Shown one piece after another: positions 2,398 through 16,975 of a stretch of DNA of 64,000 nt. The stretch covers positions 62,001-126,000 of the forward strand of contig JACQQD010000001.1 in NCBI GenBank assembly GCA_016207165.1, read 5' to 3'. How positions within the stretch are numbered: the stretch's first letter is position 1; every line of letters begins with the position of its first letter. The position numbers and the translations under genes were made by a program. Below the pieces are notes generated by a model, which worked only from the letters and a program-made list of their open reading frames with translations, was not told the origin of the DNA and ran no database searches. The stretch comes from Microcaldota archaeon. GTDB taxonomy: Archaea > Micrarchaeota > Micrarchaeia > Norongarragalinales > Norongarragalinaceae.

Positions 2398-5010
2398 ATG
2401 TCCTTTGATCCGTCGCTGTACCTTCACTCCGAGGTCCTGCATTTGGCAAAGCGGCGGGGGTTTGAGTCTTTTACTTTGGTTCAGCAGAAGGCGTTTCCGG
2501 AGGTGGCGGCGGGAAAAAACGTGTTGGTCATGGCGCCGACGGGTTTTGGAAAGACGGAGGCGGCCATGCTGCCGATTTTGTCCAAGTTGGTCCAGGAGAA
2601 AGGCGAGGGGGTTCAGTGTCTGTACATTACGCCGTTGCGCGCCTTGAATCGGGACATGTTGTCGCGCATGGAGTTTTTCTGCAAGATGCTGGGGTTGCGC
2701 TTGGGGGTGCGGCATGGGGACACGACGGCGTACGAGCGCGTCAAACAAAAAGAGCAGCCTCCCCACGTCTTGATCACTACGCCGGAGAGTCTGGGCGCGC
2801 TTTTGGTGGCCGGCATGCGGGACTCTTTGGTCAACGTCCGGTTTGTGGTGGTCGATGAAGTCCATGAATTGGCGTACTCCAAGCGGGGCGTGCAGTTGAA
2901 CTTGGCGTTGATTCGGCTGGGGTTGTTGGCCCCGTTTCAAGTCATTGGGTTGTCCGCCACGGTTTCGGCTCCAAGGGACGTGGCGGCGTTTTTGGGGGAA
3001 GGCGTGGGGGTGGTGGACGCGTCGGAGTTGCGGTCGCTGGATTTGTCGGTGGAGTACCCCAAAAAAGCGGTGGCCATGGAAGGGTTGAAACCGGATACGG
3101 CCGCCCGGTTGGTGCGGTTGGAGCAACTCATTGCGTCGCACGGCAAGACGTTGGTGTTCGTCAACACGCGGTTCATGGCTGAAGCGTTGGGGGCCTTGCT
3201 TCGGCCGCTTTTGGGCGAGGATTTTGCTGTTCACCACTCGTCGTTGTCCAAGGAGGCCCGTCTGGAATCCGAGGAGGCGTTCAAGAAAGGGCAACTCAAG
3301 GCCTTGGTCTGCACGTCTTCCCTTGAACTAGGCATGGACATTGGGGACGTGGACTTGGTGGTTCAAGTGGGTTCCCCCCGCCAGGTCACGCGGTTGGTTC
3401 AGCGGGTGGGGCGGTCGGGTCACAAGCATCATTTGACGCCCAAAGGCGTGGTTTTGGCGTTGGATGAGTTGGATGAATTGGAGGCGAAGGTGTTGGTGGA
3501 CTTGGCGCATGCGCGTTTGTTGGAGCCGCAGGCGCCGCGGTTGGGCTGTTTGGACGTGTTGGCGCACCAAATCTGTGGGCTGGCGCTTGAATTTGGCCGC
3601 ATCCGCTTGGAGGGCGTGGTCAAGAACTTTCGGACATCCCGCCTTTATGCCGGGTTGCTGGTTTCTGTTGCTAAAAAGGTGGTCGGTCAGCTGGTTTCGG
3701 AGGGGTTGCTGGCTTTTGACGGCGAGTTTTTGGAGCCGACCAAGCGGACGAAGTTTTACTATTACGAGAATTTGAGCACGATTTCGGATCTCAAGAAGGT
3801 GTTCGTCAAGAACGCGGAGTCCAACAAGAACGTGGCGCTTTTGGATGACGTGTTCGTGTCGAATTATTTGCAGGTTGGCGTCGCGTTCATCGCACGGGGC
3901 CGCGCGTGGCGGGTTTTAAGCATGGTGGACGATGAGTTGGTCGTCGAGCCGTCAAAAGACGTGTCGGCGGCCATTCCGGATTGGGTGGGGGAAGAAATTC
4001 CAGTGGCCCGGGGGGTGGCCGCCAAAGTCGCCGGCGCGCTTTCCGAGGGGTCTACGGCGTTTGGTAAAAAGCAGGCCGCGTTTTTCGTGCCGTCGGCTTC
4101 GGAGTGGGTGGTGGAATCCGAGGGCCCGGTGGTCGTGGTGCACTCTTTTTTGGGCCACCGCGGCAACGAAGCCCTTGCAAAACTGTTGGCGTTTTCTTTG
4201 GCGGCCAAAGGCAAATCGGTTCGGACGCGGGCGGGCGCGTACCACGTCTTGGTTGAATTTGGAAAGTCGGCGGACGCGGAGGCGGTGGCGGCCGTTCTTT
4301 TGGTTTGGCGCCAAAAAAGCGTGGCCGCGTTCCTCAAAACGCATTTGGTGGATTCGCCTTTGTTCGCGTCGCGGTTCGTGCACGTGGCCAAGCGGTTCGG
4401 TTTCCTGCAAAAAGACCGGGACTACCAAGCCGTTTCCGTCAAAAAGTTGGCGGCGGTGATGAAAGATTCCGTGATTGCCGAGGAAGTCTTCGCCGAATTG
4501 TTTTACGAGAAGCTGGACGTTTCAACGCTGGAATCGGCGTTGTCTTCGTTTCGCGTTTCGGTTCGGCCGTCGGGTTTTTCGCCTTTGGCCCGGCACGCCG
4601 TGGCGTTGGGTGGTTTCAGCGAACTGATTACGGCGGCGGAGCCGACGGAGAAGGTGGTGGCCGCGTTTGCCGAGGAATTGCGGTCTAAAAAGATTCAATT
4701 GCATTGCGGGTACTGCAACCAGCGCTTCACGAAATCCTTGGGCTTTTTGGAGGAGGCCCAATGCCTGTTTTGCGGGTCGCCTCGGATTTTTCCGGAGACC
4801 TATTCGGCGAAAAAAGACCAGCGCGTGGTCATGGATTTGGTGGCGGCGTACGGAAAAAACGCGTTGGTTGCGTTGAGTGCGTATGGCGTTGGGCCGGAGG
4901 CGGCCAAGCGCATTCTTTCACGGCTGCACAAGTCGGAGGACGACTTGTTTTACGACTTGCTTCAAGCCCAGAAGGATTTCATTCGGACGAAGAAGTTCTG
5001 GAAGGTCTAG
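2398..5010 (+). CDS. lhr: Lhr-like superfamily 2 DEAD/DEAH helicase
   Basis: APTGFGKTEA Walker A, VVDEVHEL (DEVH), LSATVSAP, QRVGRSGH motif VI; 870 aa; CxxC pairs near C-terminus. Confidence 0.9.
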   Translation: MSFDPSLYLHSEVLHLAKRRGFESFTLVQQKAFPEVAAGKNVLVMAPTGFGKTEAAMLPILSKLVQEKGEGVQCLYITPLRALNRDMLSRMEFFCKMLGLRLGVRHGDTTAYERVKQKEQPPHVLITTPESLGALLVAGMRDSLVNVRFVVVDEVHELAYSKRGVQLNLALIRLGLLAPFQVIGLSATVSAPRDVAAFLGEGVGVVDASELRSLDLSVEYPKKAVAMEGLKPDTAARLVRLEQLIASHGKTLVFVNTRFMAEALGALLRPLLGEDFAVHHSSLSKEARLESEEAFKKGQLKALVCTSSLELGMDIGDVDLVVQVGSPRQVTRLVQRVGRSGHKHHLTPKGVVLALDELDELEAKVLVDLAHARLLEPQAPRLGCLDVLAHQICGLALEFGRIRLEGVVKNFRTSRLYAGLLVSVAKKVVGQLVSEGLLAFDGEFLEPTKRTKFYYYENLSTISDLKKVFVKNAESNKNVALLDDVFVSNYLQVGVAFIARGRAWRVLSMVDDELVVEPSKDVSAAIPDWVGEEIPVARGVAAKVAGALSEGSTAFGKKQAAFFVPSASEWVVESEGPVVVVHSFLGHRGNEALAKLLAFSLAAKGKSVRTRAGAYHVLVEFGKSADAEAVAAVLLVWRQKSVAAFLKTHLVDSPLFASRFVHVAKRFGFLQKDRDYQAVSVKKLAAVMKDSVIAEEVFAELFYEKLDVSTLESALSSFRVSVRPSGFSPLARHAVALGGFSELITAAEPTEKVVAAFAEELRSKKIQLHCGYCNQRFTKSLGFLEEAQCLFCGSPRIFPETYSAKKDQRVVMDLVAAYGKNALVALSAYGVGPEAAKRILSRLHKSEDDLFYDLLQAQKDFIRTKKFWKV

Positions 5011-5785: not shown

Positions 5786-5911
5786 TTATTTGGTTTTGCT
5801 TTGGTTGGGTGCGGGATGCTTTTCCAGGAAGTCGTAGTCGTCTTCCGTCGGCGGCTTTTTTTCTTCCAAGGCGGGTTCCGTGACGTGCACGATGCGGGGT
5901 TTGCCGTTCAT
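5786..5911 (-). CDS. 41-aa acidic small protein
   Basis: MNGKPRIVHVTEPALEEKKPPTEDDYDFLEKHPAPNQSKTK; start overlaps the upstream stop (TGATG); not in the supplied track because short. Confidence 0.45.
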   Translation of the reverse strand: MNGKPRIVHVTEPALEEKKPPTEDDYDFLEKHPAPNQSKTK

Positions 5912-6327
5912 CAGTTGTCGGACACCTTTCCAGGCTTGAATTCAGTGGGTTTGGGTTTGCTTTTGGGCGTGCTTGAATACGTCCCCGCGTTTTGCCTCGT
6001 GATTCTCACCAAACCCTTGGCTCGCAGAAGTTCCAGGATTTCGTTGGATTCGTGGAGGGCCAGGGGTTGGTGGAGTTGAATGTATTGGCGTCGGGTGTTG
6101 GGTTCGTCGTACTCCTCGCCCACAACGACGAGTTGGGTTTCCGTTTGGAGGAGGGTCAATTTCTCGTTGATGCCTTCAACGCCGCCCTTGAAGGGGTGGA
6201 GGGTCACCGGAATTTTTACTTGGAGGGCTCCGGACACGGATTGAGTGGCGTGGGCTTGGTTCCAGTGGATTTGTTGAATGTCGCCGTAGCGGTGTAGGTT
6301 CTCGATTTCTCGGATTAGGTTTTTCAC
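5911..6327 (-). CDS. Uncharacterised protein in the Ub-like operon
   Basis: 138 aa; ATG overlaps stop of the E2 gene; same strand and operon. Confidence 0.75.
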   Translation of the reverse strand: MKNLIREIENLHRYGDIQQIHWNQAHATQSVSGALQVKIPVTLHPFKGGVEGINEKLTLLQTETQLVVVGEEYDEPNTRRQYIQLHQPLALHESNEILELLRAKGLVRITRQNAGTYSSTPKSKPKPTEFKPGKVSDN

Positions 6328-6788
6328 AGTCCGACCACCCTCGGCCCTTTGGGTTTGTGTTGCGGCAAGTCTTGGTGTTCCAGGTAGTACCTCGCCGCCT
6401 CTTCGTTCAGGGGGCTTTGGGGGTTGGGGTTCTTGAGCAATTGGATGAGGCCGTTTACGACGCTTACGAGGTTCTGGCCTTCACTCCACTCGTTGACGAG
6501 TTGGATGCACACTACGCCCACGCCTGGGTGGATGTTGGGGTGGAAAATGGGGGTCAGCCAGAACGCCATGAGTCCGCCGGGGTAGGGGTAGTCGCGGTTG
6601 AGTTCAATGCGGACGGAGTGCTGGCTTCGTGGCACGATGGAACCGTTTTGCTGGGCGAGGCCGGGGCCTTGGATGGAGACGGTGTACGTGGTCAAGTCAG
6701 GGGTGACGTCGAATCGGATGCCGGCGGCTCTCATTTCCGCGCACTCGCTTTCCAGGCGTCGCTTCCAGATGGCTTCGGGCAGTTGCAT
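6324..6788 (-). CDS. E2 ubiquitin-conjugating enzyme (UBC fold)
   Basis: 154 aa; PYPGGLMAFWLTPIFHPNIHPGVGVVCIQLVNEWSEGQNLVSVVNGLIQLLKNPNPQSPLNEEAARYY reproduces HPN, catalytic Cys, Trp and NP..PLN signatures of E2s. Confidence 0.95.
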   Translation of the reverse strand: MQLPEAIWKRRLESECAEMRAAGIRFDVTPDLTTYTVSIQGPGLAQQNGSIVPRSQHSVRIELNRDYPYPGGLMAFWLTPIFHPNIHPGVGVVCIQLVNEWSEGQNLVSVVNGLIQLLKNPNPQSPLNEEAARYYLEHQDLPQHKPKGPRVVGL

Positions 6789-6795
6789 GCGTTTT

Positions 6796-7287
6796 TCACG
6801 TGGGTTCGACGTTAATGTTTTCCGTGTATCTTTTTAGTTTTTCTGCTTGCCGCAGCCACGTTTTTCGGGTGGGCCGGGCGTGGATTCGGAAATTCACGAC
6901 GGCATTTTCAGGAACGCGCAGGCCGGCGTCTTGTCCCCAGGCGGGCAGGGTGTCTTCAATGCCGATTCCGGTGACTTGGACGCGATGGGTGCCTCCGAGG
7001 TGGCGTTGGAGGCGTTGCTCCAAGTGGCGGCGGATGGCCAGCACGACGTCGGCTTCCTGAGGGGTCGGCATCCAATCTTGTTCTTTGGACGGCGTCCAGG
7101 TGGATGGATTTGAGAGTACCGCGTTTCGGTACGCGTCCTGAATTTTTTTTGGGACTTGTCCCGTCCATCGGGCGGTGGCACGGATGGTGACGTTGAATTC
7201 GTCGCCTTTGGGTACGGCGTCCACGGAAAGAATGGTTGTTTCAGTCAATGGCTTGAACAACAAGAGGCGTTCCAAGGCGCGCAGCAT
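6796..7287 (-). CDS. Uncharacterised protein in the Ub-like operon
   Basis: 163 aa; between Ubl (stop 10 nt upstream) and E2 (start 7 nt downstream). Confidence 0.75.
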   Translation of the reverse strand: MLRALERLLLFKPLTETTILSVDAVPKGDEFNVTIRATARWTGQVPKKIQDAYRNAVLSNPSTWTPSKEQDWMPTPQEADVVLAIRRHLEQRLQRHLGGTHRVQVTGIGIEDTLPAWGQDAGLRVPENAVVNFRIHARPTRKTWLRQAEKLKRYTENINVEPT

Positions 7288-7297
7288 GGTGTGGGGT

Positions 7298-7540
7298 TTA
7301 CCCGCCGGTGGGGTCCGGCATCAGCAAAAGCTGGTCGTTTTCCTTGAGTCCCGCTTCTTGGACGGTGACTTCCGGGCCCAGGATCTTGTGGTCGGCTGTG
7401 GCCAACACGAAGCGGTCTTTGAGTTTGAGGCTCTCGGAAAGCACGTCCAAAATCGAGGAAACGGTAAACGCGGGTTCGACGGCAACCACGATTTCCTTTC
7501 CGGACGTCGTGTGCATGATGGTCACGTTGAATTCACTCAT
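7298..7540 (-). CDS. Ubiquitin-like modifier with C-terminal Gly-Gly
   Basis: 80 aa MSEFNVTIMHTTSGKEIVVAVEPAFTVSSILDVLSESLKLKDRFVLATADHKILGPEVTVQEAGLKENDQLLLMPDPTGG; Ub-like order (strand-strand-helix, ...L.ENDQLLLMP) and terminal GG; operonic with E2. Confidence 0.88.
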   Translation of the reverse strand: MSEFNVTIMHTTSGKEIVVAVEPAFTVSSILDVLSESLKLKDRFVLATADHKILGPEVTVQEAGLKENDQLLLMPDPTGG

Positions 7541-7653
7541 GAAGGATTGCACCTCTTTAGCGGTTTTTCTTTTCACTCTTGACTCTTAAATGCGTGTTGG
7601 TCGGCCTCTGGCGCGAAACCTTGATTAACGCCTGCTGGCAAACGGTTCGTATC

Positions 7654-8427
7654 ATGGACAAACCCAAGATCGTGTCGGTGTCCGGCGCGGATTCAGACCA
7701 AACACAGCGGGACGCGTTGGGGGTGCCCCCGTTGCCTGGCGGCGAACCGCAGCCAAAAAGGTCGTCTCCGGAAACCCGACTCGTGGCCCCCCCAAACCTG
7801 CAACGCGGGCAGACGAATCAATCAAGCCTTCAACCCAAGCAAACGGTTCTTCAACCCGCATTTGAATCCGAGTCCGAAATTCCTCCGGAACGAATGACGC
7901 CGGAATCGCCGCTTGTTTCACAACCCGTTTCCAGAACGCAGACGGAATCCGAAGTTTCAATGCCGCGTCCTGTCGCGGAGCCGTCACCATCGAAACCGGA
8001 AAACCCGGAGCAATCCACGCCGGGTGCCACTTCCAAACCGCCGGACCCGCTTGCTGTGGAGCCGGAGCAACCCGTGGTTCAAGTCCGGCCCGTTTTGTCC
8101 GACCCCGTTTCGGCGCCGCCGTGGGTGGCGCGGAACCAGCCGCGTCCGAAAGTGTTTATGCGTCCCGAGTTTGACGACCGCGAGGACGAGGCGTTGGCCC
8201 GCGACTTGTTGTCTGATTCAAAGCCCCGCATCGTGGCCCGCCGGGACGTGGCCCAGGAATACCGTGAACAGGCTTCCCGTGACATTCTGCCACCGTCCCC
8301 GCCTCCGCATCCGTTGACCATGGACGAGCAGCGGGCGCACGCCAAGGGGCTGGCGCAGAAAATCCACGAGGGAAAACAGTCGGAAGGCTTTTTCTCGAAA
8401 CTCAAACGCAGGCTTGGGTGGCCGTAG
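7654..8427 (+). CDS. Proline-rich, probably disordered protein upstream of JAMM protease
   Basis: 257 aa from MDKPKIVSVSGAD; Pro/Ser/Glu-rich; overlaps JAMM start; C-term FFSKLKRRLGWP. Confidence 0.75.
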   Translation: MDKPKIVSVSGADSDQTQRDALGVPPLPGGEPQPKRSSPETRLVAPPNLQRGQTNQSSLQPKQTVLQPAFESESEIPPERMTPESPLVSQPVSRTQTESEVSMPRPVAEPSPSKPENPEQSTPGATSKPPDPLAVEPEQPVVQVRPVLSDPVSAPPWVARNQPRPKVFMRPEFDDREDEALARDLLSDSKPRIVARRDVAQEYREQASRDILPPSPPPHPLTMDEQRAHAKGLAQKIHEGKQSEGFFSKLKRRLGWP

Positions 8428-8870
8428 CCTTGTACGACGTGTACTTGTCTGCGGACGTGGTGGAAAAAGCCCAAACGCATTTCCGCACCGCCGCGTCCCG
8501 GGGCAAGGAAGCCATGGGCTTGTTGTTGGGGTCCGCCTTCGTCTGGAACGGCAACCCGTATGCCGTGGCGGAACGGTACGTGACGGCGTCCAACGACGCG
8601 ACGGCGGTCAGCGTTCGCTTTTCTCGCGAGGCGTTTTCCGATCTTTCCAAAAAACTCAACGGCTTTCGCGTGGTGGGCTGGACGCACAGCCATCCCGACT
8701 ACGGGTGTTTTCTGTCGTCCACCGACGTGGCGACGCAGGAATCGTTTTTTTCGGAGGACTTCCATTTTGCGTTCGTCGTGGACCCGGTGCGCGGCGAAAA
8801 GAAATGCTTCAAAGTGCGAAACGGTCAAAGCGTGCCCGTGGGTTTCGCCGTGATTCGGAGGAAGCGCTAA
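8418..8870 (+). CDS. JAMM/MPN+ metalloprotease (Rpn11-like deubiquitinase)
   Basis: HSHPDYGCFLSSTD = HxHPx(6)SxxD-type motif with upstream E in KEAMGLLLG; 150 aa, GTG start. Confidence 0.92.
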   Translation: MAVALYDVYLSADVVEKAQTHFRTAASRGKEAMGLLLGSAFVWNGNPYAVAERYVTASNDATAVSVRFSREAFSDLSKKLNGFRVVGWTHSHPDYGCFLSSTDVATQESFFSEDFHFAFVVDPVRGEKKCFKVRNGQSVPVGFAVIRRKR

Positions 8871-9658
8871 TGGAGGAACGGCAGGACGGTGTGTTGGCCT
8901 CCGATGGCGCGGTTCCCAAGCAAGCGCCCAAAACCAGGAAAAAGCGGAAAGCCGCCCAGCGCTTCAAGGTCACGCGGTTTGACAAGGATTTAGTCAAACT
9001 CATTCACGCTGGCACGACGAACCTCAAAGACGCATGCCAACAATTGGGCGTGGACTACGACTCGGCGCGAAGCCGTGCGCTGGCCATGGCGGAAAAAAAG
9101 TGGCTGGTCACCGACCCCTCGCATGCCGACGTGTTCCGCTTGGGTTTGGAGGGCTACAACCAGTTTGCCTCCGTCGTCAAACCCAAAGCCAAGTCATTGG
9201 CGGCCAAGGCGTCGGGGCGGTCGCCGCCCAAGGCGGCGGTCGCCGATTCGGAACCCGTGCCTCCACTGGAAGACGTGGATTCGCTGCCTTCGGCGTCCAA
9301 TGCCGTGGACTTGGCGGACTTGCTCCGCCGGGGCGCGCCCAAGTTGACGTCGGGGGAGCCGACGGATTACGGGTTGCCTGCGCCGTCACCTTCGCTGCCG
9401 GTGCCGCCCGTGACGCAGAAAAACGCCGCGGAAAGCACGGTGTGCGAACTGTGTCGGGCGCCGTTTAAGTTGTCCGTCAAGAATCTGGAGGGCGCCAAGT
9501 ACGCGCACTGTTTCTGCGGGGCCGCGTACCACAAGGACTGCTATCACGCGTTGGTGGAAGGCGGGGGCCGGTGCGCGCGGTGCGGAAGAAAGCTTTCACT
9601 CATCCTGGATCGGCACGCGGATGAGGCCCTCAAAAGCGTCAAGGATTTGTTTGACTAG
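8870..9658 (+). CDS. RING-like zinc-binding protein, candidate E3 (N-terminal HTH-like region)
   Basis: 262 aa; CELC-x(18)-CFCGAAYHKDC-x(10)-CARC cysteine/His spacing; start overlaps JAMM stop (TAATG). Confidence 0.8.
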   Translation: MEERQDGVLASDGAVPKQAPKTRKKRKAAQRFKVTRFDKDLVKLIHAGTTNLKDACQQLGVDYDSARSRALAMAEKKWLVTDPSHADVFRLGLEGYNQFASVVKPKAKSLAAKASGRSPPKAAVADSEPVPPLEDVDSLPSASNAVDLADLLRRGAPKLTSGEPTDYGLPAPSPSLPVPPVTQKNAAESTVCELCRAPFKLSVKNLEGAKYAHCFCGAAYHKDCYHALVEGGGRCARCGRKLSLILDRHADEALKSVKDLFD

Positions 9659-9660
9659 GC

Positions 9661-10044
9661 CTATTCTTTTGCTTGAATGGTTACTTTGTGAGTCAGAAAC
9701 GTCAGAAACTCAAGGCCCGAATGGCCGTGGTCGTCGGTATGCAACGACGCAATTACTTGCTTTTTTTTGTTTATGATTTCGACTCGTTTCCGCAGGTATT
9801 CTAGGACTTCGTCCGCCGTTGCAGGGTTTTTTCTACCGCGCCGGGAAGTGATGCTCGCGTCTTCTCCCTCTACCTTGATCTCGGTTCGAACCAGGTTGTT
9901 TCGCCGGAGGTGGGCGAGCCTCGGTAACCCGGAAGACCGGCGCAGGGTTTTTTCTCCCGGGTGACGAATGTATGCGGTCAACGAGTACGTTATTCCGGCA
10001 CGATTTAATCGTCCTATCAGGCTCTTCGTCGCTGCGTACACCAT
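9661..10044 (-). CDS. Uncharacterised protein downstream of E1-like gene
   Basis: 127 aa from ATG at 10044; co-directional with E1-like gene, 35 nt gap. Confidence 0.6.
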   Translation of the reverse strand: MVYAATKSLIGRLNRAGITYSLTAYIRHPGEKTLRRSSGLPRLAHLRRNNLVRTEIKVEGEDASITSRRGRKNPATADEVLEYLRKRVEIINKKKQVIASLHTDDHGHSGLEFLTFLTHKVTIQAKE

Positions 10045-10079
10045 GATGACTAATTTTCCAGGGTCTTTAACTGCGTTTC

Positions 10080-10850
10080 TTAGGGATGCACCGGGCACGT
10101 TTTTCTTTTGGGAACCTCGAAGGTTTGCGTTTGCTGGGTTAAGCCGTTGTAGTGCACGTACGTTCCCGCGCCAGAGTTTTGTTGCAACAAGTTGGCCAGC
10201 CAGGCGTTGACTTGCATGGCGGACACCACGGACGTGGTCGTCGGAAGGGCGGGGGTTTTGGGGTCCAGGTAATCCAGGACTTCCCCGACGCAGCTGTACT
10301 TTTTCCACAGCAGTTTGTAGTCGCGGTTGTTCATGCCGCACTCCAGGCATGAAGACGGTTTGGATACGACCTGCAGCTTTCCAAAGAATCCGTTGGTGCC
10401 GCCATCAAACAGGGGCGCGTAATGATAGGTTTGGGCGTTTGTGTGAAGGCGCGCGCCCAGGTTGTCCAAACAACCAAAAACGGCGTCGTGCGTTTGGAAC
10501 GCGGTTTCCGGAATCGTTTCCACGGCCCGGTGGTCCGGCGTGATGGCGGTGTCAGGAAACGTTTTGGCGGCTTTTTCGACGATGACGTCGGCCTTGAATC
10601 GGTGCGTTTGCGCGTCGCTTGAATCAAAGAAGACGCAGCGGTTCAAGTTGGCCGGAACCACGGTGTCAAAGTCAACGACGGTGATCTTTCCGACGCCCAA
10701 TTGAAGCAAGAGCTTGACGGTTTCGTTGCCCAAGGCCCCTGCTCCGATGACCAAGACGTTTTGCTTCCTGATTTTTTCCTGGTCCCATTGCGCAACGCGT
10801 TTTTGGCGGTCGAAGCGGTCCGCGTCCACAACCTTAATTTCAGGCGCCAT
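10080..10850 (-). CDS. E1-like / ThiF-MoeB family adenylyltransferase
   Basis: RFDRQKRVAQW, VLVIGAGALGNETVKLLLQLGVGKITVVDFDTVVPANLNR, CLECG...CPVH zinc ligands, PTTTSVVSAMQVN; 256 aa. Confidence 0.93.
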   Translation of the reverse strand: MAPEIKVVDADRFDRQKRVAQWDQEKIRKQNVLVIGAGALGNETVKLLLQLGVGKITVVDFDTVVPANLNRCVFFDSSDAQTHRFKADVIVEKAAKTFPDTAITPDHRAVETIPETAFQTHDAVFGCLDNLGARLHTNAQTYHYAPLFDGGTNGFFGKLQVVSKPSSCLECGMNNRDYKLLWKKYSCVGEVLDYLDPKTPALPTTTSVVSAMQVNAWLANLLQQNSGAGTYVHYNGLTQQTQTFEVPKRKTCPVHP

Positions 10851-11643
10851 GCACGCCTTGTACGTGCCAACGTTTTTCTATTCGACGGACGACGCGGCGG
10901 GCGTGAACGCGGCAAACGCGCTGCGCCACGCCCGACTAAACCGGCCCTTGAAAATCAACGGGTTTGCGGCGTGGCGGTTTGACGGGTTTGATTTGGTGGA
11001 AACGGGTTCGCGGACGGTTCAATTCCAGGATGCGGATTTGTTTGAAACGGATTTGGTCGTGTTCTTGTCTCGTCATGCGTCCGCCTCCAAGACTCCGTGC
11101 TTTACGTGTCACGTGACCGGCAATTTTGGGCCCGCCAATCCGGATATGGGCGGGCGGGATGGAACGCTTTCCCGTGCGTCCGCGTTTTGGTTGAAGCGAT
11201 TTTATCTGGCGCTTCAGGAACGCGCGGGCCACGTCTTTTTGGAGGCCACGCACCACGGCCCAACCCTTCAAACGCCGAGTTTGTTCGTGGAAATTGGTTC
11301 GGAAGGGGCCGAATGGAAGAAACCGGAGAACGGCGTGGCGTTGGCCGAATCGGTGCTGGCCGCGTTGTCTCGAAAGGATGAAGGCAAGGCGGCTTTGGGG
11401 TTGGGTGGCGCGCATTACTGTTCCGCTTTCGCTCCGCTGATGCAGGAGGGCTGGGCCTTGTCGCATGTCGCTTCAAAGCATTCCGTGGGTTTTGTGACGA
11501 AGGACCTCGTCAAGCAGGCGGTGGAAAAGACGGTGGAGCCGGTGGAACATGTTTTCCTGGACTTCAAGGGTTTGCCCGCGGAAAAGAAAAAAGAGATTCC
11601 GGCTTGGTGTGAACAACTGGGTTTGGCGTGGGAGCGGGTTTAG
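10849..11643 (+). CDS. dtdA: D-aminoacyl-tRNA deacylase, archaeal DTD2 type
   Basis: YSTDDAAGVNAANAL, FLSRHAS, EATHHGPTL, GGAHYCSAF, SKHSVGFVT motifs; 264 aa. Confidence 0.85.
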   Translation: MHALYVPTFFYSTDDAAGVNAANALRHARLNRPLKINGFAAWRFDGFDLVETGSRTVQFQDADLFETDLVVFLSRHASASKTPCFTCHVTGNFGPANPDMGGRDGTLSRASAFWLKRFYLALQERAGHVFLEATHHGPTLQTPSLFVEIGSEGAEWKKPENGVALAESVLAALSRKDEGKAALGLGGAHYCSAFAPLMQEGWALSHVASKHSVGFVTKDLVKQAVEKTVEPVEHVFLDFKGLPAEKKKEIPAWCEQLGLAWERV

Positions 11644-12563: not shown

Positions 12564-13679
12564 TTAGTACTGAGAAAGTTTCCTCTGGGTTAAAATCCGG
12601 CTTTTCTTGAGGTATTGGCTCCAAGGCTGTTTCAAGCGTTTTTTCAGTTCTGTTACGGCGTCGTTGAAGTTGGAGGTTTTGAACGGCGGCCGGGTGAAGG
12701 CGTGCCGCACGTTTTCTCGAACCTCCCAAACGCCTACGGGCACGACGTATTTTGGTGAGACTTCTCGGAACACGATGGCGCGCGCCTGCCGCTTCATCTT
12801 GAAAAGCGCTTCCGCGACGCCGAAGCGTCCGGCGTAGTAGCCGCCGCCCTCGCCTTCCGCGTAACGGGTTCGGCCTTCAAACGCCTCGTATTCGTGTGCG
12901 ATGTTGGACTGGTTTTCAAAGGATTCGAATTGCTCGAACTCCCACGCGCCGGGAAGCAAGAGGATTTCGAAGTGGTTGTACAAATAGTTGTTCGAATAAA
13001 TTCGGTACTCGCCGGTTTCGGGAAACCCTCGGATTTGTTCCAGCCACTCTTTGGCAATCATGTCGTCCGTGGCGGTGATGCTCCACTTGGTTGGAACTAG
13101 TTTTCGCTTTTGGCCCAAAATCCCGGCGGACAACAGTTTTTGGACGTAGTGGTAGTCAAACCGCGGCAGCAGTTCGGAAAGCGCATCTTTGACCTTGAGT
13201 TTTTCCTGGATTAACGCGTCGACTTTCTTGGGCACTTTCGGGTTTTCCGTCAGCCGCATGCGCTCCAAAACCCCGGAGGGCCCCATGGGTTGGACGTGTT
13301 CTGAAAACGAGAGGGAAAACCGAGGCGTTTTTTCGAATTGCATTTCCACGTCCAACGGCTTTTGCGCGGCCGCCAGCCAGAACGCTTCTTCCTCGGTGCG
13401 GTGGACGTGTTGGACGGTGAAGCCGCGGGCAAGCAGTGCGCGGTGGCGCAAGAGTTCCGGGTAATTCAGCCCGTACAAGTCCGTGGGCGCATCCAGTACG
13501 CCTTCATCCAGTCCCACCAGGGGCCCGGCGCGAACGGACGGATACCCGTATTCGCCGACGAACACGTTGGGCGGCGAGGGGCCAAACGTGGTCTTGGATA
13601 GCCTCGGCAAAACCTGGTTTTCCAGGTCCCGCATCCACGTCTTGCCCCGGATCCACTCGTACACGGAATCGCGCTGCAT
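12564..13679 (-). CDS. nreA: NreA-like DNA repair protein
   Basis: FGPSPPNVFVGEYGYPSVRAGPL, VEMQFEKTPRFSLSFSEHVQPMGPS, archaeal Nre family pattern; C-terminal QRKLSQY resembles a PIP box. Confidence 0.85.
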   Translation of the reverse strand: MQRDSVYEWIRGKTWMRDLENQVLPRLSKTTFGPSPPNVFVGEYGYPSVRAGPLVGLDEGVLDAPTDLYGLNYPELLRHRALLARGFTVQHVHRTEEEAFWLAAAQKPLDVEMQFEKTPRFSLSFSEHVQPMGPSGVLERMRLTENPKVPKKVDALIQEKLKVKDALSELLPRFDYHYVQKLLSAGILGQKRKLVPTKWSITATDDMIAKEWLEQIRGFPETGEYRIYSNNYLYNHFEILLLPGAWEFEQFESFENQSNIAHEYEAFEGRTRYAEGEGGGYYAGRFGVAEALFKMKRQARAIVFREVSPKYVVPVGVWEVRENVRHAFTRPPFKTSNFNDAVTELKKRLKQPWSQYLKKSRILTQRKLSQY

Positions 13680-13982: not shown

Positions 13983-14030
13983 GGTTTCGGGTGACTTAGT
14001 TTCGTGGAAGTTTTTCAAGCCAAGGAAAAA

Positions 14031-15131
14031 ATGCTGGCCAATTTGGGTTGGAGCGAGAACCCGTTTGTCAAGGATTTGCGGTTTTCCGAGAGGGATTACT
14101 TTCTGAAATTTTATTACCCGTTGGAGGCTCAGGAGATCCTCAAGCGCTTGGCTTTTGACGCCAAGGCCTGCCTGTTCTTGGGGCCCAAGGGTGTTGGAAA
14201 GACTTCGGCCATGTATTTTGTGGCGTACGGCTTGCCCAAAGACCAGTTTGACACCGTGATTTTCAAGGAGCCGCCGCAAAGCTTGGAAGAGTTGGCGGAG
14301 CAAAGCGGTTTTGGCCGGCAAGGCTTCTTGGACAAATTGCTCAAAAAGCCGTTTTCCCGGCAGAACCTCGTGGACGCGCTCAAGCGCCACGGCAAGAAAA
14401 TCGTTTTTTTCCTGGATGAGGCGCATTTGGAGAAAAACCATTCGATGTACATGGAGTTCAAGTATCTTTTGGACGACGTGCCGAACTTGCGGCTGGTCTT
14501 GTCCGCGTTAAGCAAGGAGGGTTTTCCCGACTCGCTTCTGCATTTGGTCGGCGAGCCCAACACGTTCTTGCGCCGGAGTTTCACCGGAGGGGAAATGACG
14601 CGGCTGATTTCGCACCGCATTGCGGCGGTCGGCGGGTCGCCGCTCAAGCCGTTTCCGCAGGCGTATTTGGACTCCATGTTGACGGAACAAAACCTGCTGT
14701 CGCCTCGGTACGTGTTTGACGAGCTCAACGCGTTTCTGGCGGGCTTGGCCACCGGGGAGTCCACGTGGAAGGGCGCGGCGGAGTACGCCGGCAACCCGAT
14801 TGTCGAGGCGGCGGTGGCCGCTTCGGTGGGAACCACGCGGTCGCATGCGGAGTGGTGGCCGCAGTTGTCGCCTTCTCAGAGTGCCATCATGGATTATTTG
14901 TTGCAACAGCGCGAGGCGACCCTTCAAGACATCATGAAGGCCACTTCGTTGTCGCAGAACACGTCGTTTAACGCCTTGTACCAGTTGCGGGGCGATGACG
15001 CGGCGGAAAAAAAGCGCAAGCCCAAGGTGCCTTTTCCTTTGGTCAAGGCCAAAAGCGTGAGGGTGGGCGCGCGCAAGAAGAACGTGTACGTGGTGGTGGA
15101 CAAGGTACGAAACCTGTTCACCACGCATTGA
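14031..15131 (+). CDS. AAA+ ATPase with C-terminal winged-helix-like region
   Basis: FLGPKGVGKTSA Walker A, IVFFLDEAH Walker B; alternative GTG start at 14004. Confidence 0.8.
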   Translation: MLANLGWSENPFVKDLRFSERDYFLKFYYPLEAQEILKRLAFDAKACLFLGPKGVGKTSAMYFVAYGLPKDQFDTVIFKEPPQSLEELAEQSGFGRQGFLDKLLKKPFSRQNLVDALKRHGKKIVFFLDEAHLEKNHSMYMEFKYLLDDVPNLRLVLSALSKEGFPDSLLHLVGEPNTFLRRSFTGGEMTRLISHRIAAVGGSPLKPFPQAYLDSMLTEQNLLSPRYVFDELNAFLAGLATGESTWKGAAEYAGNPIVEAAVAASVGTTRSHAEWWPQLSPSQSAIMDYLLQQREATLQDIMKATSLSQNTSFNALYQLRGDDAAEKKRKPKVPFPLVKAKSVRVGARKKNVYVVVDKVRNLFTTH

Positions 15132-15319: not shown

Positions 15320-15541
15320 ATGGCCATTCGACCCACCAGTCTGTCGTTGTTTGACTCCGATGCCTTGCTTCGCCAAGGCGGCGCCGAGCGCGTCGGCGAG
15401 GACGCGTCCCGCAAATTGGCGGAGATTTTGGAGGACAGCGCTCAGCGCATTGTGGTCGATGCCCAGCGCTTGGCGCGCCACGCGGGGAGGAAACGCATTT
15501 TGCGGGAGGATATCCTGTTGGCGGCCCAAATGATCCGCTAG
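15320..15541 (+). CDS. Archaeal histone
   Basis: GGAERVGEDASRKLAEILEDSAQRIVVDAQRLARHAGRKRILREDILLAAQMIR histone fold. Confidence 0.93.
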   Translation: MAIRPTSLSLFDSDALLRQGGAERVGEDASRKLAEILEDSAQRIVVDAQRLARHAGRKRILREDILLAAQMIR

Positions 15542-15568: not shown

Positions 15569-16975
15569 TTAGCGGAGTTGCAGTTGGACTTCCACGACTT
15601 GCTTGATTTTTTTCAGGAACGTTTTGACGTTTTCAGGCGTGGCGTCCAACGAGGCGCCGGCGGCCACGGCGTGTCCTCCACCAAATCCTTGGACGTCTTC
15701 CGCCGCTTTTTTCATGGCTTCGCCTAAATCCAGGCCTTGGGTGCACAAGTCTTTGGACCCGCGTCCGGAGGCCTTCAAGGCGCCTTGCTCGTCGACGCTC
15801 AAGCCGATGACGGGCTTGGTGCGTTGGACCAGTCCCGAGGAAAAATACGCTCCGCAGACGACGCCGATGATGGTGTCCGAAATTGTTCCGCGTCCGTCGA
15901 TCAGATAGAATGCGCCGGCGTCCACCGCGTTTTTCTTGGCGAATTCAATGCCTTGTCGGACGGCCAGGCGGTGTTTTTTGAGCAGGTCTTGTGCTTGTTG
16001 CAGGGCTCCGTCTTGGCCCAGGCACGCGCCAATGCCGATTTGGGGCGCGTCGTGGCGCCCGCAGGCGTTCAACAAGGTGGAGAATTCGTAGGCTTCTTTT
16101 CGTTCGGAGCCCTCCGGTTCAAAGGGAAACACGTAGACGTCCCCCACCATTTGCCGGATGAGTTTTTCCTCCACGCCTTGCGCGTACGCGTACTGGATGA
16201 GGGCGGAGGCGAGTTTTTTCCGTTCAAACACGTTGAGTCCGTAGTAGGAAAGCGTTTTTCCGTCGCGGTACGTGGGAACGCCTTCGTTTTTCAGGAATAC
16301 GGCGCAGGCCTTGTCGTCGCCGGTCAAGCCCGGAAGCACGGGTTCGGTGCAGTACGTCAGAAACGACACCAGGGAGCGCGTGACTTTGCCGAACAATTTG
16401 AGGTCGTTGGTGTGCAGGACTTGTCCTTGGTTTACGGCTTCTTGGAACATGCGTTGGTTGAGTCCCTGGAAACCGTTTTGGTCCTGCATGTCGCCGACGG
16501 CTCCGACGATGCCCAGTTGCGCGGAGAGGCCCGTATGACGGAAGCAGTACCAGGCCGTGGAGGCCGAGCAGGCGTCCACGGCTCCGTCAAATTCGAAGTC
16601 ATGGCAGTTGATTCGTTCAATGTCTGAGTCTTTGGAGGGCGGGTGGTGGTCGATGACCACTTTTTTTGGGTTGGACATGCCTTCCACGAGTTCCAGTTGT
16701 CCGGCGCCCAAATCGGTGAAGACCAGTTCCTTGTCCGGCGGGATGGACTTGGCGGAGGCGTCGTCGAGTTTCTTGAGCATCAAGGTCGGCGCGTTTTTGC
16801 CTTTCAACTGAAAGGCTTTTTTGGCCAACGCCGCGGAAGTCAGTCCGTCGCAGTCCAGGTGGTGGACGATGAGCGGGTCCTGAAAGGCCAATGCCCATTC
16901 CCCGATTTGGCGGGCCTTTTTCTCGAAGCCGTCCGCGTCCGGGGAACGGGGCGCCGTTGGCAGCGTGGTTTGCAT
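15569..16975 (-). CDS. DHH/DHHA1 phosphoesterase, RecJ-like exonuclease
   Basis: HHLDCDGLTSAAL, VIDHHPPSKD, GFGGGHAVAAGAS (DHHA1); 468 aa. Confidence 0.88.
   Translation of the reverse strand: MQTTLPTAPRSPDADGFEKKARQIGEWALAFQDPLIVHHLDCDGLTSAALAKKAFQLKGKNAPTLMLKKLDDASAKSIPPDKELVFTDLGAGQLELVEGMSNPKKVVIDHHPPSKDSDIERINCHDFEFDGAVDACSASTAWYCFRHTGLSAQLGIVGAVGDMQDQNGFQGLNQRMFQEAVNQGQVLHTNDLKLFGKVTRSLVSFLTYCTEPVLPGLTGDDKACAVFLKNEGVPTYRDGKTLSYYGLNVFERKKLASALIQYAYAQGVEEKLIRQMVGDVYVFPFEPEGSERKEAYEFSTLLNACGRHDAPQIGIGACLGQDGALQQAQDLLKKHRLAVRQGIEFAKKNAVDAGAFYLIDGRGTISDTIIGVVCGAYFSSGLVQRTKPVIGLSVDEQGALKASGRGSKDLCTQGLDLGEAMKKAAEDVQGFGGGHAVAAGASLDATPENVKTFLKKIKQVVEVQLQLR

Follow-up and report, generated by a model that had tools for sequence, protein, structure and literature searches.

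Whether a tiny-genome archaeon can carry a complete, eukaryote-like ubiquitin pathway is the question raised by a locus on contig JACQQD010000001.1 (assembly GCA_016207165.1). The window analyzed here is a stretch of 64,000 nucleotides of this contig, taken from a 1.27-Mb genome (G000) of the Micrarchaeota whose closest named relative is a Candidatus Micrarchaeota metagenome-assembled genome (L012; 68% identity in the E2). Within 5 kb of the window lie the genes of a ubiquitin-like modifier (Ubl), an E2 conjugating enzyme, a ThiF/E1 activating enzyme, a JAMM protease and a RING-like protein. The locus spans 5.8 to 10.85 kb and is organized in three blocks: p41-(138 aa)-E2-(163 aa)-Ubl on the minus strand, adaptor-JAMM-RING on the plus strand and E1-(127 aa) on the minus strand, where lengths in amino acids (aa) stand for open reading frames (ORFs) without a name, and p41 and the adaptor are accessory proteins described below. 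A preliminary description of this DNA had proposed that an archaeon carries the complete eukaryote-like set of Ubl, E1, E2, RING and JAMM; all the genes it named were recovered in their places, with matches to the Pfam families UQ_con, ThiF and JAB. As argued below, the locus very probably encodes a complete ubiquitin-type conjugation-deconjugation cascade, a variant of the archaeal kind, and we infer that the pathway is functional.

The E2 belongs to the UQ_con family (E=6.7e-18) and its best profile matches in the PDB are UBE2H/UBE2A (1e-18). The HPN motif, Cys94 and Pro149 of the tail are invariant in 27 relatives; the most divergent E2 (L053) was excluded from this alignment and its catalytic cysteine is also kept. 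The Ubl of the window ends in PDPTGG, and Lys15, Pro75, Asp76, Gly79 and Gly80 are invariant in a 26-member alignment. This genome's Ubl sequence alone gave a Rad60-SLD/SUMO-like Pfam match of 20.8 bits, below the cut-off, and among its relatives 20 of 26 match Rad60-SLD (best 1.8e-6) and 15 match ubiquitin. The AlphaFold model of the Ubl is a beta-grasp fold (pLDDT 80), to which Foldseek matched SUMO, ubiquitin and Caldiarchaeum ubiquitin (6fj7/6fno) with TM-scores of about 0.81-0.87. Lack of conservation of the E2 cysteine or of the GG in relatives, and a different Ubl fold, had been anticipated in the preliminary description as possible objections; both sites proved invariant and the predicted fold agrees with a modifier of this type.

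The protease matches JAB (2.9e-14), and its Glu31, His90, His92, Ser100 and Asp103 are invariant in 22 relatives. Its best PDB profile matches are yeast Rpn11 (6.7e-22) and CsRpn11 of Caldiarchaeum (6fjv, 2.4e-19), BilC reaching just 0.007. Residues beyond the GG are present in 7 of the 26 Ubls of relatives. According to PMC5654768, the pro-ubiquitin of Caldiarchaeum is likewise extended and is cleaved by its Rpn11 homologue; by analogy, trimming of the extended precursors by the JAMM would be the likely first step in the species that carry them.

Concerning the E1, a single ThiF domain (9.1e-42) was identified at residues 19-254. Its best PDB profile matches, yeast UBA1 and human UBA3/UBA6/SAE2 (E about 1e-35 to 1e-32), rank above MoeB (7e-26), ThiF and UBA5, although such rankings against solved structures are an order of similarity and not a phylogeny. 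Cys187 and the zinc ligands Cys168, Cys171, Cys252 and His255 are invariant in 20 relatives. The best match over a single stretch was UBA3, the catalytic subunit of the NEDD8 E1 (120.6 bits), which shares the zinc-ligand region and a P-A-x-x-T motif with the window protein. In this alignment a domain of about 80 residues that holds the catalytic cysteine of UBA3 is replaced by a loop of about 22 residues that holds Cys187, the putative catalytic cysteine of the window E1. UBA3 also has a C-terminal ubiquitin-fold domain (UFD). The window E1 is devoid of a second Rossmann domain and, because its chain ends at the CPVH zinc motif, of a UFD. It is a minimal UBA3-like single adenylation domain. 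UBA5 of the UFM1 pathway is a compact E1 that likewise has one adenylation domain and serves an E2, UFC1, which is recruited by the C-terminal tail of the E1; the window E1 can be aligned with it along the whole domain at lower similarity (1e-19), and the recruiting tail lies on the E1 in UBA5 whereas here a tail motif lies on the E2. A second strong ThiF-family protein, presumably a MoeB/ThiF-type adenylyltransferase, is encoded outside the window in the same genome (G000:C1:42903-43520).

The distribution of the genes gives further evidence. Pfam PF00179, the E2 family, was detected in 28 of the 30 genomes of the order to which the window belongs, Ubl and RING were found in those same 28, and the three are present in all eight genomes of the order with at least 90% completeness. 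A phylum-wide sample of 197 genomes included 19 of the order, which were the sole E2-positive ones, the E2 being absent from all 178 other Micrarchaeota of the sample. The gene-neighbourhood survey proposed in the preliminary description revealed that the arrangement p41-E2-Ubl / adaptor-JAMM-RING / E1 / DTD is kept in gene order and orientation across families, the Rpn11-type JAMM being clustered with the other cascade genes in nearly all loci. Where clusters were apparently incomplete (G003, G188, G200 and G123), most of the missing parts were located elsewhere, either on different contigs or dispersed over some 20 kb. In G123, which represents the most divergent family, E2 and Ubl are still flanked by short ORFs that resemble p41 and the adaptor and carry the motif discussed below. 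Chance can be excluded because Ubl, E2 and RING co-occur in an identical set of 28 of the 30 genomes, with their order and orientation conserved, and the cluster is best read as vertically inherited within one Micrarchaeota order and not as a stray acquisition. Co-occurrence was uninformative about a coupling to the proteasome, as all 30 genomes have the 20S proteasome, even the two that lack the cascade.

Among the alternatives, the one that survives best concerns the candidate E3. This protein combines an N-terminal winged helix resembling Lrp/AsnC regulators (8.7e-5; modelled at pLDDT >90) with a RING-like domain whose zinc ligands Cys192, Cys195, Cys214, Cys216, His221, Cys224, Cys235 and Cys238, spaced CX2C-CX1C-X4-H-X2C-CX2C (C4HC3), are invariant in 16 relatives; the PDB profile search gave weak matches to the AMFR/RCHY1 RINGs. 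The winged helix, the basic character of the protein (median isoelectric point, pI, 9) and its DNA-repair and chromatin gene neighbours would also fit a DNA-binding zinc protein (winged helix plus treble clef) without an E3 role, which would reduce the cascade to E1-E2-JAMM, and the RING models stay below cut-off and compete with C1 and RH_dom matches. We consider this reading unlikely, since the ligand spacing is RING-like, the matches to zf-RING_2 (16 of 20 members, best 2.3e-4) and Prok-RING_1 (14 of 20) are weak but consistent, and the gene adjoins that of the JAMM and is co-distributed with E2 and Ubl. The RING-like zinc protein announced in the preliminary description is backed by eight invariant ligands, and it may have E3 activity.

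Some observations weigh against a complete cascade typical of the whole order. No family reaches its cut-off in the Pfam scan of the window RING protein, and a structure search of the candidate E3 matched the winged helix alone, not the RING part. The general ThiF fold accounts for a share of the E1 profile score. Ubl, E2 and RING are lacking in two genomes of the order: G203, which is 61% complete, and G207, which is 79% complete and alone in its family. The latter genome is also devoid of any ThiF match and has proteasome genes; its state would represent either a loss or a lineage that split off before the gain.

A second alternative is that the E1 and Ubl serve mainly for sulfur transfer or for SAMP-like tagging by an E1 alone, with a decorative or decayed E2 and RING. 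The size and single-domain plan of the E1 are like those of MoeB/UbaA, and NCBIfam lists MoeB, ThiF and UbaA matches. However, these score far below the cut-offs (57.8 bits for the UbaA model against a cut-off of 450), and the invariant Cys187 lies in a loop that matches the position of the UBA3 Cys domain. Decay would not keep the E2 cysteine and HPN and the RING zinc ligands invariant, and the occurrence of an E2 in each of the 28 genomes (of 30) that have the Ubl is unlike an E1-only system. Moreover, other ThiF proteins are found elsewhere in many genomes, that of the window included, and could do the sulfur chemistry, so we hold this explanation to be very improbable.

Least credible of all is the acquisition by the archaeon of an anti-phage Ubl system of bacterial type (Bil, 6A/E1-E2-JAB or CBASS Cap2-like): the logic of E1, E2, JAB and Ubl is shared, the E1 matches PADLOC E1-E2 models (best 1.1e-14, adenylation domain only) and the JAMM weakly matches PADLOC JAB models, but PADLOC gave no match for E2, Ubl or RING, for which reason membership in a defence system was rejected, the E1 is not fused to the E2 and is nearer UBA1/UBA3, the JAMM is far nearer Rpn11 than BilC, and the cluster stands order-wide at a fixed chromosomal place, between the Lhr helicase and DTD/Nre, and not in a patchy defence island. 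By profile, E1, E2 and JAMM are nearest to eukaryotic UBA1/UBA3, UBE2H/A and Rpn11 and not to bacterial systems. A single-sequence scan with the E2 returned one archaeal relative and E2-like stretches of actinobacteria (L013, L014 and L015; Dactylosporangium, Frankia) at 28-33% identity over short spans; the latter are possibly bacterial conjugation systems.

A complete conjugation-deconjugation cascade would work as follows. The JAMM would trim the Ubl precursor to its GG where it is extended, the minimal UBA3-like E1 would adenylate the Ubl and hold it as a thioester on Cys187, and the Ubl would be handed from there to Cys94 of the E2. The winged-helix RING E3 would then aid its transfer to lysines of putative substrates, from which the JAMM would remove it again. 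Adaptor, p41 and E2 tail may compete for or share a docking site, and they would scaffold or tune E2 recruitment where the E1 is devoid of a UFD.

Among known systems, the Ub-E2-E1-srfp operon of Caldiarchaeum subterraneum with its Rpn11 (PMC5654768, PMC6043591) resembles the locus in its clustered GG-Ubl, E1, E2, RING and Rpn11-type JAMM and in pro-ubiquitin processing, and the structures of CsRpn11 and CsUb are near matches of the window JAMM and Ubl. However, CsE1 was modelled in PMC5654768 with an inactive Rossmann domain, a Cys domain and a C-terminal UBL/UFD, all of them missing from the window E1, and srfp is described there as a small RING-H2 (C3H2C3) protein whereas the candidate E3 is a 262-aa winged-helix C4HC3 protein. 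The two systems also differ in gene order, with three blocks here, and in phylum. Adaptor, p41 and their shared motif were not found in the accessible descriptions of the Caldiarchaeum system in PMC5654768 and PMC6043591. E1-E2-RING-Ub clusters have been reported in Asgard archaea (cited in PMC5654768); the window lineage differs in being of DPANN type. The distinct architecture suggested in the preliminary description is apparent in the single-domain E1, the winged-helix C4HC3 protein, the three-block gene order and the adaptor and p41. Our literature search, which left most subscription papers and supplements outside its reach, found no description of this Micrarchaeota system; some of the genomes studied here could be among the supplementary clusters of PMC5654768.

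The preliminary description had also counted several extra unassigned ORFs. This was right for those of 163, 138 and 127 aa, which are lineage-specific and without a Pfam family over cut-off. It did not hold for the adaptor (the Pro-rich ORF) and p41 (the 41-aa ORF), both of them core parts of the cluster across the order. No Pfam family was found for either. The adaptor is the first gene of the JAMM-RING block in loci with a readable Ubl-JAMM gap; its middle varies freely, and the parts kept are one or two KPRIV-like motifs, often a core like A-S-R-D-I-L-P, and a basic-hydrophobic end. An amphipathic membrane helix at this end, MinD-like by eye, was considered and rejected, as the hydrophobic moment is 0.375 against 0.366 in background C-termini; adaptor C-termini do have a higher positive charge (+3.1 against +0.9). 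Iterative profile searches located p41 in 25 loci (24 non-redundant), with the consensus KPRIVxVKE...EExxPPsExxYxF.

A motif (K/R/G)P(R/K)(I/V)(I/V) is common to three of the proteins. It lies at the extreme C-terminus of the E2 in 27 of 28 cases, near the N-terminus in 24 of 24 p41s, a few of them scored with corrected start positions, and, in a loose form, in 20 of 22 adaptors, often twice; it was not found in Ubl, JAMM or RING. The background consisted of 386 further ORFs, each 100 aa or longer, from the window and flanks; six of them had the strict form, and five of these six were adaptors missed by the homology search, which leaves 1 of 381. Since one short element recurs in three proteins of the pathway, a single receptor is suggested, and E2 tail, p41 and adaptor may bind one common partner. 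Median pI values are 4.5 for the Ubl, 9.4 for p41 and 8.6 for the adaptors, and the acidic Ubl and the UFD-less E1 are the favoured candidate receptors, neither preferred over the other. We tentatively propose, as a possibility with the odds rather against it, that the motif is a new docking element by which E2 tail, p41 and the often two-motif adaptor would meet on one receptor, be it the strongly acidic Ubl, the E1 with its missing UFD or a further member of the cascade, thereby replacing UFD-based E2 recruitment and scaffolding the winged-helix E3, possibly on DNA/chromatin. The motif was also considered as a lysine acceptor; R and K are interchangeable after the proline, so docking seems likelier than modification.

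Table 1. Features of the locus and of its neighbourhood, in window coordinates
Feature	Position	Strand	Length (aa)	Sequence features
p41 micro-protein	5786..5911	-	41	KPRIV 5888-5902, then EE..PP and EDDYDFLE elements
138-aa ORF, downstream of E2	5911..6327	-	138	this genome only; Pfam: no family over cut-off
E2 conjugating enzyme	6324..6788	-	154	HPN 83-85; Cys94 at 6507-6509; tail motif GPRVV (P149-V152, 6333-6344)
163-aa ORF, between Ubl and E2	6796..7287	-	163	lineage-specific; Pfam: no family over cut-off
Ubl modifier	7298..7540	-	80	ends MPDPTGG*; GG codons 7301-7306
Disordered adaptor, Pro-rich	7654..8427	+	257	KPKIV 7660-7674; KPRIV 8221-8235; core ASRDILP; basic-hydrophobic end GFFSKLKRRLGWP
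JAMM/Rpn11-type metalloprotease	8418..8870	+	150	E31, H90xH92, S100, D103
Candidate E3	8870..9658	+	262	winged helix ~8975-9142; linker with DLAxLLxRGAP; C-terminal C4HC3 RING-like domain, zinc ligands within 9443-9583
127-aa ORF, downstream of E1	9661..10044	-	127	this genome only; Pfam/NCBIfam: no family over cut-off
E1 activating enzyme	10080..10850	-	256	single adenylation domain; candidate catalytic Cys187 at 10290-10292; Zn ligands C168, C171, C252, H255
Lhr-like helicase	2398-5010
D-aminoacyl-tRNA deacylase (DTD2)	10849-11643
Nre DNA-repair protein	12564-13679
AAA ATPase	14004-15128	+		C-terminal helix-turn-helix-like region
Histone	15320-15541
DHH/RecJ protein	15569-16975

The coordinates of all these genes are collected in Table 1. 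The 163-aa ORF is found in two species only, that of the window and one congener (L017, also seen as L012), and is absent from the corresponding Ubl-E2 gap of L018. The 138-aa and 127-aa ORFs have no homologue in other loci of the order, and no family-level relatives of any of the three were found by Pfam scan or by comparison among the loci of the order. Across the order the cluster has the Lhr-like helicase on one side and DTD2 on the other; beyond DTD2 come Nre, an AAA ATPase with a helix-turn-helix-like end, a histone and a DHH/RecJ protein. In a cascade-less Micrarchaeota genome, Lhr, DTD and Nre lie close together (L097; G147:C12:122000-141500); this is a candidate empty site, which would fit either a single insertion between Lhr and DTD or a single loss elsewhere. 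The AAA ATPase is nearly confined to the order, being strong in 11 of 14 members sampled and matched faintly in 3 of 45 other members of the class, and it is possibly a partner of the cascade or an order-specific replication protein. That the cascade is linked to DNA repair or chromatin is a conjecture we regard as doubtful.

Caldiarchaeum and Asgard archaea have been discussed as bearers of complete eukaryote-like ubiquitin cascades, and hence in relation to eukaryogenesis; an order-wide, fixed Micrarchaeota version widens this picture. Its host here is a tiny-genome archaeon, remote from those archaeal lineages that are regarded as nearest to eukaryotes. Two core accessory proteins and a shared motif, none of them in the families that were searched, come in addition. 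Since a single adenylation domain is all that is left of the E1, the need for UFD and Cys domains becomes directly testable, and about 28 genomes offer natural variation in one syntenic locus.

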